Source of the DNA: a virus
Reading direction: 5' to 3' (one strand)
IMG/VR virus record: IMGVR_UViG_3300048552_000056
Location: 1 to 29,332 of that record
Length of the DNA stretch: 29,332 nt
This document shows, piece by piece, positions 6,148-25,337 of the stretch (the stretch's first letter is position 1; each line of letters begins with the position of its first letter). A model generated the notes under the pieces. The model ran no database searches, had not been told where the DNA came from, and was given only the letters and a program-made list of their open reading frames with translations. The position numbers were made by a program, and so were the translations under genes.

Positions 6148-6312
6148 CTAATGTAGTTCTTGTTCGGGTTCATCGGTTCCATGTATGACCGAGAAGATAT
6201 CATCAGCTACTTCTTCTGCTGCATCCATATCGGCACAGCCAGTTACGCGCATAACGATTACTGGTTCGCCATTCTCTTCTATAATAAACATAGAGAAATC
6301 ATACTCATTCAT
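6148..6312 (-). CDS. Small acidic protein (54 aa)
   Basis: The ATG at 6310-6312 overlaps the M15 peptidase stop (ATGA), and the frame ends in TAG 6148-6150, nine bases before the phosphoesterase start. The protein begins MNEYDFSMFIIEENGEP, with a likely beta-hairpin (PVIVMRVTGC), an acidic helix (DAAEEVADDIF) and a charged end. It is too short for most ORF callers but is flanked by perfect coupling on both sides. Function unknown. Confidence 0.65.
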   Translation of the reverse strand: MNEYDFSMFIIEENGEPVIVMRVTGCADMDAAEEVADDIFSVIHGTDEPEQELH

Positions 6313-6893
6313 TTACTCAGTCCTTTCGAGTAGTGCTTACCATCGAAAGTTAGCGCCTGTTTGCGGTTCTGTCCAGTGATGTAGGACACATGTATCCACC
6401 CACTGTTAGGCTTACCAGGCGTGTAGTGTTCTAGGATTAGCTGGTCATACTCTAGGTTGGCCTCGATCCAGCGAGCAACTTGGTAGTTGTCACTGCCAAC
6501 AACCTCAAAGTCTACTGCCTCCCCCTTGCAATGCTGACTCGTGTGACTGCTGCCAATCTCCTCACAGAGAAAGGGGCTGCGGTATCCGCTAGAGATTATC
6601 ACAGGTGTCTTGAAGTGGTCACGCATAGGCTCGAGGACGTTGTTGCACAGCGCTCTGAGGGAGGTGACGTGTTCTGGTGTGGGGTTGTTGTCTATTCCCA
6701 GGCGCATAGCTGTCTGGCTTTTGATCATCTCCTGCAAAGTAAAGTTTGCACTAACTCTGCCGAATGGTAACGGAGCTTTAGGCTCCGCCTTTACAGGAGT
6801 ATCTACTTTTTTCCGCGCATCCCCATCAGTTTGTCGGCACCCTTCACCCCAAAGGATGCTGTTACCGCCACGAATAAGAGGTATTGATACCAA
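6309..6893 (-). CDS. Peptidase M15 endolysin (probably expressed by frameshift)
   Basis: The frame contains the M15 (D-Ala-D-Ala carboxypeptidase/endopeptidase) zinc site: SGYRSP (102-107), SQHCKGEAVD (119-128: zinc ligands H121 and D128) and WIHVS (H168). It would cut peptide cross-links of peptidoglycan during lysis. The start is a problem. The only in-frame start before the domain is TTG at 6893, without a ribosome binding site and 91 bases inside the holin gene; the first ATG (M56) lies past the conserved opening ANFTLQEM. A -1 slip at 6806-6812 would instead fuse residues 30-194 to the holin through a Pro/Ala linker (PVKAEPKAPLP). Domain call is sure; start is not. Confidence 0.85.
   Translation of the reverse strand: MVSIPLIRGGNSILWGEGCRQTDGDARKKVDTPVKAEPKAPLPFGRVSANFTLQEMIKSQTAMRLGIDNNPTPEHVTSLRALCNNVLEPMRDHFKTPVIISSGYRSPFLCEEIGSSHTSQHCKGEAVDFEVVGSDNYQVARWIEANLEYDQLILEHYTPGKPNSGWIHVSYITGQNRKQALTFDGKHYSKGLSK
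6767..6812 (-). promoter_or_regulatory. Candidate -1 ribosomal frameshift signal (holin to endolysin)
   Basis: Read on the minus strand: the last holin codons are GGA AAA AAG TAG, so the heptamer A_AAA_AAG (6806-6812) is in the correct phase, with the stop codon directly after it. A GGGG stretch a few bases upstream resembles the Shine-Dalgarno-like stimulator of dnaX. Downstream, GTAA (6794-6791) pairs with TTAC (6770-6767), and CGGAGC (6787-6782) with GCTCCG (6776-6771), giving a ten-pair stem with a three-base bulge and loop CTAAA. The spacer to the outer stem is 11 bases, a little longer than usual. Slipping back one base enters the M15 frame at GTA GAT ACT. Confidence 0.5.
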
Positions 6894-7192
6894 CTCGGGA
6901 GTGTATCCAAGACCGCGAACCCCTCCCGCACGTGTTGAGTCAGCGATGGCACAAAAACTAGGATAGACGGGACGAGCAACACCACGAGAGCGAACTCATC
7001 TTTCCACGAGTTCTTCGTTGCGTCAGCCATGTTGGCTTCCCAGTCAACTTCACCTGTCGCAATACGTTTCTGAACTTCTGCATCAGCCTTGGCCTTTTCT
7101 ACTTTGACTGCCGACTTAGCTTTGCTTTCCTCGACCTTACCGTTTACCCAGTTACCAGCGATGCCAGTGACCGCACTTAATATGTTAATCAT
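6803..7192 (-). CDS. Holin of the three-helix (GTA-type) family
   Basis: The 129-aa protein has an N-terminal amphipathic/hydrophobic stretch (INILSAVTGIAGNWV), a long charged Ala/Lys/Glu helix, the block NSWKDEF, and two membrane segments at about 68-87 (ALVVLLVPSILVFVPSL) and 104-118 (YQYLLFVAVTASFGV), ending MGMRGKK. Layout and the SWKDEF block fit the holin family linked to gene transfer agent release. It lies directly before the endolysin gene and would open the inner membrane at lysis. The ATG overlaps the preceding stop by four bases. Its last codons form the slippery site described separately. Confidence 0.78.
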   Translation of the reverse strand: MINILSAVTGIAGNWVNGKVEESKAKSAVKVEKAKADAEVQKRIATGEVDWEANMADATKNSWKDEFALVVLLVPSILVFVPSLTQHVREGFAVLDTLPSWYQYLLFVAVTASFGVKGADKLMGMRGKK

Positions 7193-7401
7193 TTCTCTTT
7201 CCTTTCGTTTAATAGTCTATCCATGTGATGGTTCCACAGTTCGAATAAACTAGTCAACTTGTCTTCAGCGTTTTCCATGCGTGTGTCAAGCTTATCATTC
7301 TTTGCTTCCAACACTGATATGCTGCGGCTGATCCACCAAGCCATAGCTAATGCCAGCGTAATGACAGGCCACCACTGTAGTAAAGTCTCGCCGAAGTTCA
7401 T
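7189..7401 (-). CDS. Single-span membrane protein with coiled coil, spanin- or holin-like (70 aa)
   Basis: The ATG at 7401 is chosen over the upstream in-frame start because AAGGAA lies at proper distance before it. The protein has one membrane segment (about residues 9-24, WPVITLALAMAWWI), then a charged heptad-like helix (SVLEAKNDKLDTRMENAEDKL) and a basic tail. This resembles an inner-membrane spanin subunit, anchored at the N-terminus with a periplasmic coiled coil. No outer-membrane lipoprotein partner is seen nested or next to it, so it could equally be a holin accessory protein. Confidence 0.65.
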   Translation of the reverse strand: MNFGETLLQWWPVITLALAMAWWISRSISVLEAKNDKLDTRMENAEDKLTSLFELWNHHMDRLLNERKEK

Positions 7402-7402
7402 G

Positions 7403-7561
7403 TTACTGTTCCTTGTATGCTTTCCATACACGCCAGATCAAAAGACCCAGGCCAATCATGGCACCAATAAACTGCATCCAAACAGTTGCCCCAGACATCC
7501 AAACAGGTGCAGTAATTACACCCCCTGCTACGACCATATCAGTGACAGCTTTGCTTTCCAT
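7403..7561 (-). CDS. Small membrane protein, holin-like (52 aa)
   Basis: The frame starts MESKAVTDMVVAGGVI with its ATG overlapping the upstream stop (TAATG) and ends one base before the next gene. It has a Gly/Val-rich hydrophobic stretch (MVVAGGVITAPVWM), a second stronger one (FIGAMIGLGLLIWRVW) and a charged end (KAYKEQ). Size and layout match small phage holins with one or two spans. With the next two genes it gives three consecutive membrane proteins before the endolysin. Confidence 0.7.
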   Translation of the reverse strand: MESKAVTDMVVAGGVITAPVWMSGATVWMQFIGAMIGLGLLIWRVWKAYKEQ

Positions 7562-22909: not shown

Positions 22910-24436
22910 TTATACCACACCGCCGCCTTGCTGTTGAGCAGCCATTTGTTGCATCATTTCTTGCATCTGTTTTCTCTCCGCCTCATCTCGAATCAAAGTA
23001 TCGGGAACACCGAACTTCTTACCAAGATAGATTGCAGCTTCCTCTGTGTCTACAAGTAAGTTGACCATCTCTGGGCCGAAGTTACCACCGACAAGCTCTA
23101 AGAAGCGAGCAACGGACGAGATGTCTTGATTAGACTGGGCTTGTGCCAAAGGTGAAGAGCTACGAACTTTAACTTCACGGCCATTCACTGTAGGCAAATC
23201 AATACGCCCCTGCTTCTTGAGAATGTAAACTACACGCTGGAGAAGGGGTTGAACTAGCTCTGCTTGCAAGCGACCAAAGGCTGAACCAATACGACGAGAC
23301 AAGTCTGCCATACGCTCTGCAATCTCTGTGGCTGTAGCTGGTGTGCGATTTGGATCACCAAGCATATCGTTATACAGAGCGCGTTTAATGTTCAGGCGCA
23401 TGTCGTTTAGCACAAGCTGGGCAACGTCAAAGCTACCAGCAGCAGCTACAGGCTGTAGTCCGCCTGAGCCTGGGGCTTTAGGAATGACTGTGCCTGGCAC
23501 AAGGTTGATTGTATCCACGTTGATAATGCCATCGTCATCCATCTGATAGATGCCAGAGATAGCCATCTGTGCGTTCTCAAGGATTAGTTGGATAGTCAGG
23601 TTGGTTGTCTTGATAGAAGACAGTGCGTTGACTAGCGGCCCTCGCCCATAAACTTCGCCAGAAGCTTTCGACCATCGGAAACAAATGAACGGGTTACTAC
23701 CGACACCTGTGAAAATATCTTGGTAAATGAGTTCACCATGCGTTTTATCAATAGCATAGTAGCCGTAACGTTCTTGGTTTGGTTTATCATATAATCGACA
23801 AACGACTTCAAGGACTTTGCATTTTTCATCTGGTTTATTCTCCATCAGGTCTACCAACTTGGGAGACAGTTTTGCTTTAGGGTATGCAACTTTAAAGTCG
23901 CGGTGACGAATCTCGCGCTCACGATACACATGGTCAATGCGATCATCAGCACCATTTTCTAATACAATCTTAGGCAGGGGGATAGCGCTAAAGCGTAGTG
24001 GGTTAACGGCATCGCCTTCTTCCACTAGCAAGCAGCCAGTGCCTACAGCTAGATCCATAAACGACTCATGCACTTCCTGTGCAAAGTTACTGTTAGCTAT
24101 GATTTCAAAGATGTATTCTGTGACTTCATCGAGATCATTATTTACCTCATCACGCTCTTCACCAGGAATCTCACTGCCAGCAATAAGGTCTGACCAGCGA
24201 GCGAAGTTAGGCACTAGCCCAGTCTGTAAGCGCGATGCAAACTCTTGAACACCAACGACAGCAGTCTCATCAAAGATGCGGTCATCTCGGCGCTCGGCGG
24301 GGGATGTATGGAAAAAGCCCTCACGCTGTGGGAGAGCATAGTCGTAGCACTCTTGGAACAAGTCTTCGAAAGGAAGTCGAAACGACTTGGCCGTTTCATA
24401 CTTTTTCATGTAGTGCTTCGCTGTTTTATTTTCCAT
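22910..24436 (-). CDS. Head-tail connector / portal protein
   Basis: A 508-aa protein of the podovirus head-to-tail connector family (T7 gp8-like): FEDLFQECYDYALPQREGF near the N-terminus, FDETAVVGVQEFASRLQTGL, DLAVGTGCLLVEEGD, the stretch ending RWSKASGEVYGRGPLVNALS, and a Gln/Met-rich end (QMQEMMQQMAAQQQGGG). Twelve copies form the DNA entry ring. The frame extends upstream to 24466, but the ATG at 24436 (MENKTAKHY) is preferred: it overlaps the previous gene by only 11 bases and the family normally starts near this point. Confidence 0.92.
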   Translation of the reverse strand: MENKTAKHYMKKYETAKSFRLPFEDLFQECYDYALPQREGFFHTSPAERRDDRIFDETAVVGVQEFASRLQTGLVPNFARWSDLIAGSEIPGEERDEVNNDLDEVTEYIFEIIANSNFAQEVHESFMDLAVGTGCLLVEEGDAVNPLRFSAIPLPKIVLENGADDRIDHVYREREIRHRDFKVAYPKAKLSPKLVDLMENKPDEKCKVLEVVCRLYDKPNQERYGYYAIDKTHGELIYQDIFTGVGSNPFICFRWSKASGEVYGRGPLVNALSSIKTTNLTIQLILENAQMAISGIYQMDDDGIINVDTINLVPGTVIPKAPGSGGLQPVAAAGSFDVAQLVLNDMRLNIKRALYNDMLGDPNRTPATATEIAERMADLSRRIGSAFGRLQAELVQPLLQRVVYILKKQGRIDLPTVNGREVKVRSSSPLAQAQSNQDISSVARFLELVGGNFGPEMVNLLVDTEEAAIYLGKKFGVPDTLIRDEAERKQMQEMMQQMAAQQQGGGVV

Positions 24437-24902
24437 TGAAATATCCACCGTAAAATCCACTACCACCAGCAGGAGATGTTAAAAGGGCTCGACGACCAGT
24501 CTTGCGTGTTAAAGCTTTAGCTTCCGCCTGGACTAAACTCTTGCGTTTTTGTTTAACCTCTTGCAAAGCTGGTTGCTGCTCGGTATCTGTTTTAACTTTT
24601 TTACTTAGCTCGGCCGCTTGAACACCAACAGTAGAGGCTAAATCTTTTAACTTTTGTGTATAAAGAGACCCTACCATACCTGGTTGCGAAGCTTTTTTTC
24701 GAACAACCTTAGCTTCAGCCAAAGTGACCGCAGCCTGTTTTCTGTAAGCCTCGATTGTTCTAGGATCAACACCAGCTTTTTCAGCATCTTGATATACAGC
24801 TTCTGGAATAGAGTATGTGTTAGTAAAGTTTTGTTGAGCAGCTTTAGCCGCCTGCATTTCTCTTTGCCGCTTTCGCTGTAGCGCGGGTCCTGATAATCCC
24901 AT
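24426..24902 (-). CDS. Duplicated small protein, copy 2 (158 aa)
   Basis: Basic, helical protein whose last 42 residues nearly repeat those of the preceding gene: KQKRKSLV, then EAKALT, KTGRRALLTSP and AGGSGFYGGYFNGK. Upstream, AGVDPRTIEAYRKQ also matches SGVDQRTIDSYIAKQ of copy 1. It is 26 residues longer than copy 1. The ending GRRALLTSPAGGSG resembles a short Arg/Leu/Thr/Gly motif seen in small virion proteins encoded near podovirus portals. The position between large terminase and portal suggests a head or connector accessory role. Confidence 0.7.
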   Translation of the reverse strand: MGLSGPALQRKRQREMQAAKAAQQNFTNTYSIPEAVYQDAEKAGVDPRTIEAYRKQAAVTLAEAKVVRKKASQPGMVGSLYTQKLKDLASTVGVQAAELSKKVKTDTEQQPALQEVKQKRKSLVQAEAKALTRKTGRRALLTSPAGGSGFYGGYFNGK

Positions 24903-24938: not shown

Positions 24939-25337
24939 TTATTTTCCATTAAAGTATCCACCATAGAATCCACTACCACCAGCAGGAGATGTTAAGAGAG
25001 CGCGACGACCAGTTTTTTTAGTTAAAGTCTTTGCCTCTAGTTCAACTAAGCTTTTACGTTTTTGTTTGATAGCTTGAAGCTCAGGTTGTTTTTTAATTTC
25101 TGTGTCTAATGCAGCCCTTGCAAGTTGTGGGATTCGTCGCTCTTCAAGACCATGAATGTGCATCGCCCTAAAGAAGCCGCTTGTCCTCATAACATCGTCT
25201 ACTTGTTTGGTTTGCTTGGCTATATAAGAATCAATAGTTCTTTGATCTACACCAGAAGCTTTAGCCTCAGCGATTTGTTCAGGGCGGATTCCCAGTCTGT
25301 ATTCTGCCCGTTCCCTACTAGTGCCACGCATTGCCAT
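24939..25337 (-). CDS. Duplicated small protein, copy 1 (132 aa)
   Basis: Starts MAMRGTSRERAEYRLGI, with the ATG overlapping the large terminase stop (TAATGG). It is basic and helical and ends with the same block as copy 2 (KTGRRALLTSP, AGGSGFYGGYFNGK). The N-terminal halves of the two copies have diverged, so the shared tail is under stronger constraint or was homogenised later. The relic of terminase sequence directly after its stop shows the pair arose by tandem duplication. Probable head or packaging accessory protein; function unproven. Confidence 0.7.
   Translation of the reverse strand: MAMRGTSRERAEYRLGIRPEQIAEAKASGVDQRTIDSYIAKQTKQVDDVMRTSGFFRAMHIHGLEERRIPQLARAALDTEIKKQPELQAIKQKRKSLVELEAKTLTKKTGRRALLTSPAGGSGFYGGYFNGK

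Follow-up and report, generated by a model that had tools for sequence, protein, structure and literature searches.

A putative programmed −1 frameshift that would join a holin-like membrane protein to an M15 endolysin in marine phages

The lysis cassette and its genes

The DNA analysed here, referred to as the window, comprises positions 1–29,332 of IMG/VR record IMGVR_UViG_3300048552_000056, a marine phage. Its minus strand carries a lysis cassette made up of a 52-aa ORF, an 80-aa ORF, the gene of a 129-aa membrane protein and an M15 peptidase:

7403–7561, minus strand: 52-aa hydrophobic ORF, possible second holin (Phage_holin_10, E=0.068, below cut-off)
7189–7431, minus strand: 80-aa ORF with one transmembrane segment and a charged tail, questionably spanin-like (weak Rz-like matches only)
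6803–7192, minus strand: 129-aa holin-like membrane protein, PHROG 2524 (phrog_2524, E=5.3e-30), read in the zero frame and ending CGC GGA AAA AAG TAG
6309–6806, minus strand: −1-frame extension, a Val-Asp-Thr-Pro linker and the M15 peptidase, 165 aa plus stop (phrog_894 endolysin, E=6.9e-38)

The peptidase assignment rests on a Peptidase_M15_3 domain in the −1 frame (Pfam E=1.9e-21; 76.6 bits against a curated cut-off of 23.2). By inspection of the translation the M15 zinc ligands, H-x6-D and a later H, are present (QHCKGEAVDF, WIHVSY). A PDB sequence search gave no match to this protein. The 52- and 80-aa ORFs overlap each other just upstream of the 129-aa gene (7189–7561); the former may be the true holin and the latter an i-spanin, a possibility that has only sub-threshold family matches behind it.

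The 129-aa protein has no Pfam or NCBIfam match, and PHROG 2524 is of unknown function. No profile match to GTA_holin_3TM (PF11351, the former DUF3154) was obtained; a homologue annotated as DUF3154 aligns with the protein from end to end and itself lacks a PF11351 match. Hydropathy peaks at residues 66–86. The AF2 model (helices 63–79, 82–97 and 100–113), with a pLDDT of 58, is of too low quality to support a fold search. The holin traits are the membrane segments and a position in the lysis cassette adjoining the endolysin, and on these grounds the protein is likely to be a holin; this is not proved. The label "holin" of the first-pass annotation, which was made from the sequence alone, is accordingly no more than likely. 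Its claim that the fused peptidase is membrane-anchored remains probable, but the positively charged C-terminus (RGKK), taken with the positive-inside rule, would place that end in the cytoplasm. On this inference the fused peptidase would wait on the cytoplasmic side until the membrane is breached.

The nearest cultured relative of the window phage is Pelagibacter phage EXVC031P Hodr (terminase 66%, capsid 50%). The G+C content of the window, approximately 47%, is far above what is expected of a SAR11 phage, and the host is therefore probably another marine bacterium. No phage tRNA was found. Elsewhere on the minus strand, the adjacent ORFs 24426–24902 and 24939–25337 share a near-identical C-terminal part, RRALLTSPAGGSGFYGGYFNGK, and are likely to represent a tandem duplication in which the N-termini have diverged.

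The junction in the window and in its relatives

On the minus strand the junction reads ...CGC GGA AAA AAG TAG ATA CTC CTG..., and contains the following features:

6806–6812, minus strand: slippery heptamer A_AAA_AAG, in phase with the 129-aa frame (as in 47 of 47 class 1 membrane-protein coding sequences, defined below)
6803–6805, minus strand: zero-frame stop codon TAG, directly after the heptamer
6800–6805, minus strand: 6-nt spacer between heptamer and stem, of the same length in nearly all relatives
6789–6799, minus strand: 5′ arm of a conserved stimulatory stem, CTCCTGTAAAG (folding and covariation)
6770–6788, minus strand: local hairpin nested inside the stem, specific to the window (folding)
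6729–6739, minus strand: 3′ arm of the conserved stem, CTTTGCAGGAG, inside the M15 codons TTG CAG GAG (L-Q-E) (folding and covariation)

An open −1 frame spans 6995–6309 on the minus strand and contains the Peptidase_M15_3 domain; the predicted fusion has 129 + 165 = 294 aa. No start codon lies between the heptamer and the domain in the M15 frame of the window, the codon after the heptamer being GTA, and the only start ahead of the domain in that frame is a TTG at 6893. The heptamer, its phase and the absence of a start are seen in the sequence itself. The string AAAAAAG occurs at six further sites in the 29-kb window. The first-pass annotation had described the in-phase A_AAA_AAG with the stop codon next to it, and an M15 frame with no ATG or GTG before its domain, only a TTG; both descriptions held. 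The 294-aa product made beside the 129-aa protein, by continuation of the −1 frame into M15, holds as a prediction.

Relatives were collected by scanning IMG/VR with both proteins and with divergent members, which gave several hundred loci. Junction counts vary by one or two between analyses because distinctness was judged on different stretches. At every junction where M15 directly follows the membrane gene (about 80 distinct in IMG/VR) it stands in the −1 frame, and this frame is kept through nine different distances from heptamer to domain motif. The junctions fall into two classes. In class 1 (50 distinct junctions) A_AAA_AAG adjoins the stop, except in L363, L364 and L370, where it lies one codon further upstream; an ATG coupled to the stop was found in 0 of 50. 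Fourteen of these junctions, the window's included, have no ATG, GTG or TTG after the slip site; an ATG lies between slip site and domain in 18 of the 50 (not in the window), and a GTG or TTG in 18 more. In class 2 (29 distinct junctions) the A6G run, six A followed by G, is absent and an ATG stands at −1 to +5 of the stop in 29/29, as ATGA, TAATG or a close start, which is ordinary translational coupling. Every junction had at least one of the two, a slip site or a coupled start.

Among distinct junctions adjoining the membrane gene, 51 of 81 show A6G together with a real upstream frame. For M15 genes elsewhere the figure is 1 of 189, and this single case carries an ATG of its own; the heptamer is therefore not there by chance. 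The stop codon (TAG, TAA or TGA) of class 1 relatives adjoins the heptamer or comes one codon later, so that conservation of the A6G run, a check put forward in the first-pass annotation, was borne out. The last codons of 47 distinct class 1 membrane-protein genes are always NNA AAA AAG or AAA AAG AAR, preceded at the A run by Gly, Arg or Leu, while other conserved Lys columns of class 1 mix AAA and AAG, mostly with 15–43% of the minor codon. Class 1 was itself selected on A6G, and the fair codon control is the set of membrane-protein homologues with no M15 downstream; in these, every one of the four possible pairs of AAA and AAG occurs at the last two Lys codons.

Four changes of the A6G state are required on a quick tree of the membrane protein, so that one mode, coupling or frameshifting, has given way to the other at more than one point; deep branches still carry the fusion mode. 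The linker between slip site and M15 domain varies in length and sequence across relatives. A scan with the motif pattern returned mostly chance matches and a few more diverse members. No cultured phage with the fusion junction was found, the best M15 matches in 50,697 phage records beginning at the domain, and Hodr, the nearest cultured genome, carries other lysis genes. Bacterial genomes yielded a single homologue (L516), without A6G at the junction.

Five A6G members (L188, L236, L248, L277 and L281) keep an ATG for M15 inside the stem-loop; these could make both free and fused enzyme, and resemble intermediates between coupling and frameshifting. In L452, L456 and L457, which lack A6G, the membrane gene ends CGG GGA AAG TGA, with an in-phase G_GGA_AAG and an ATG 5 nt past the stop. 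G_GGA_AAG is another very efficient motif and may be a second slippery variant.

RNA structure downstream of the heptamer

The minimum-energy fold downstream of the heptamer in the window consists of the CTCCTGTAAAG/CTTTGCAGGAG stem and the nested hairpin (−31.7 kcal/mol, z=−4.85; two computations gave z of about −4.9 and −4.3). The conserved stem has 11 bp, pairing 6799–6789 with 6739–6729; it begins 6 nt past the heptamer, and its 3′ arm falls in the M15 FTLQEM codons. Folded singly, most of 19 diverse members form this same stem, and its arms covary across members (CTCCTG/CAGGAG, CTCCCG/CGGGAG, CTCTCG/CGAGAG). On an alignment of 25 sequences, 96% of stem cells are paired, compared with 42–58% when the partner is slid, and changes on both sides occur in 10 cells versus 3.8 in shuffles; the column pair 18–83, for instance, shows UA:17, CG:7 and UG:1. 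The stem and its covariation are likewise seen in the sequences. Over the 90 nt past the stop, z against shuffles averages −2.13 in class 1 (n=45) and −0.47 in class 2 (n=27), a difference whose P value of 2e-7 is only indicative because the sequences are related.

The long-range stem is not universal. In L363, L364 and L370 its arms are missing and a local 7-bp hairpin occupies that position (representatives folded), and in L375 and L458 the folds are weak or different, with the long-range stem absent. No conserved upstream Shine-Dalgarno stimulator was seen by inspection, the 12 nt upstream being GAGTATGCGCGG and similar in relatives.

Two elements named in the first-pass annotation failed at this point. 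The ten-pair bulged stem that it placed 11 bases downstream (about 6788–6770) is specific to the window and not the conserved stimulator, the long-range stem reaching into the M15 codons having been missed; and the GGGG upstream lacks conservation, GAGTATGCGCGG being found in most close relatives.

Frameshifting, its rivals and its known counterparts

A frameshift signal requires an in-phase X_XXY_YYZ heptamer, a structure approximately 5–9 nt downstream and an open −1 frame coding for a conserved domain, and all three are present. A_AAA_AAG is among the three most efficient motifs in E. coli when a stimulator is provided, and stimulatory structures usually begin 5–8 nt downstream (PMC4066793). 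The signal is also conserved in relatives while synonymous sites elsewhere vary. We therefore consider it very likely that programmed −1 ribosomal frameshifting produces a 294-aa membrane protein–endolysin fusion beside the 129-aa protein, a reading of the first-pass annotation which the comparison strongly supports. That slippage occurs, and how efficiently, is inferred by comparison only, in the absence of protein, ribosome-profiling or reporter data and without knowledge of the host or its tRNA-Lys set.

In this view ribosomes translating the 129-aa gene would meet A_AAA_AAG just ahead of the stop and be held there by the stem 6 nt downstream, the 3′ arm of which consists of M15 codons. Some would slip back one base, from AAA-AAG to AAA-AAA, miss the stop and read on into M15. 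The predicted products are the 129-aa protein alone and the 294-aa fusion with the peptidase at its C-terminus. Since frameshifting would be the sole evident route to the endolysin in the window phage, a single signal would set the ratio of membrane protein to endolysin and tie the enzyme to the membrane. Against this account stand those 18 of the 50 A6G relatives, the window not among them, in which an ATG would allow free M15 to be initiated, as well as the few members without the long-range stem and the lack of a conserved upstream Shine-Dalgarno.

The main rival has M15 translated by re-initiation after termination, or by an initiation event of its own, at a start that is non-canonical or hidden, with the heptamer incidental. 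In its favour, relatives without A6G clearly use a stop-coupled ATG (29/29), an ATG, GTG or TTG lies between slip site and domain in 36 of the 50 A6G relatives, and the TTG at 6893 exists in the window. Against it, no start is conserved: GTA follows the heptamer in the window and 14 junctions have none at all. The TTG, GTG or ATG at about −88 stems from out-of-frame reading of a conserved Trp codon, and in many relatives stops in the −1 frame put M15 out of its reach; a start at TTG 6893 was rejected on these grounds. A hidden start would also leave unexplained the conserved heptamer, the fixed 6-nt spacer, the covarying stem and the preserved frame of the linker, and we regard it as very unlikely. 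According to the first-pass annotation, related phages with separate genes, a clear M15 start and no slippery site would refute its reading; that arrangement was found in all 29 class 2 junctions, which form a complementary class and not the window's own. Transcriptional slippage on the A6 run, giving mRNA with an extra A, would yield the same protein from a conserved homopolymer, and is the alternative used for dnaX of Thermus (PMC5009743). Six A residues are, however, short for polymerase slippage. The run is moreover always in the exact A_AAA_AAG phase with G next and a stem at ribosomal spacing, none of which polymerase slippage needs; this explanation too has very little to recommend it. 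A sequencing or assembly error concealing a plain in-frame fusion (A7) or another indel is all but excluded. A homopolymer beside a frame change is a typical site of error, and the first-pass annotation had cautioned that a one-base deletion in the A run would mimic the signal; but A6G with the −1 frame recurs in all of about 50 distinct junctions, which come from separate metagenome assemblies, and seven A or an in-frame fusion occurs in none of the relatives. A contig from a separate assembly (L081/L193), with a membrane protein 99% identical, has the same A6G.

The last alternative concerns purpose rather than mechanism and does not exclude frameshifting: the fusion would serve dosage only, the enzyme being freed later by cleavage or the tether having no role. 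Class 2 makes free M15 of the same family by coupling, and the linker, being variable in length and sequence, could be cleavable. On the other side, some A6G members keep no evident route to free enzyme, and the fusion mode has persisted on deep branches despite four transitions of mode. We lean slightly against this alternative. The linker may be cleavable, the role of the fusion may be one of quantity alone, and members that keep an ATG may make additional free enzyme.

Frameshifting is well known in phage tail genes, in dnaX and in insertion sequences. To the −1 frameshift favoured here, E. coli dnaX offers a close parallel, in which an identical heptamer is soon followed by a stop and a downstream stem lies at ribosomal spacing (PMC5009743, PMC4066793). 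There the frameshift produces a truncated protein, with the aid of an upstream Shine-Dalgarno, whereas here it would add a whole enzyme and there is no conserved upstream stimulator; the Shine-Dalgarno criterion of the dnaX/IS911 type is not met at this junction. IS3-family transposases (IS911, IS3) use an A_AAA_AAG-type motif with a branched stem or pseudoknot to fuse two overlapping frames (PMC4066793), but their product is a transposase, unrelated to the present junction in sequence or role. The G/GT tail assembly chaperones of tailed phages are likewise made by −1 frameshifting as a short and a C-terminally extended protein in a set ratio (PMC3556154, PMC6316719); they are tail genes with different proteins, whereas the present junction belongs to lysis. 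Also comparable are the stop-coupled cassettes of class 2, with the same membrane protein, the same adjoining M15 and the same −1 frame, which differ in having ATGA or TAATG coupling, no A6G, no stem and a free endolysin. Joining of a holin-like protein to an endolysin by frameshifting was not found in the literature searched, which did not cover most subscription journals, and within that limit it is an unreported use of programmed −1 frameshifting. One lysin reportedly involves overlapping genes; to judge by the title, that report concerns the lysin itself and not a fusion to a holin.

Lysis timing is usually attributed to a holin releasing a soluble endolysin made as a separate protein, or to secreted (SAR) endolysins. 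The comparative data point instead to recoding as the means by which an endolysin is tethered to a membrane protein and kept at a fixed ratio to it; what the tethered enzyme does in lysis is inferred only. A bolder reading, on which we find the evidence finely balanced, is that frameshifting makes the endolysin chiefly or only as a C-terminal fusion to the holin-like protein. Translation would then determine the ratio of the two and the enzyme would stay at the membrane, at the site of lesion formation, in a gene pair that has switched several times between this mode and stop-coupled re-initiation in marine phages. In marine viromes, endolysins of this kind have probably been annotated as genes with no start or with a wrong one. 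The gene pair offers a natural series of switches between coupling and frameshifting and, if the interpretation is true, lysis would join the phage functions that are run by frameshifting.
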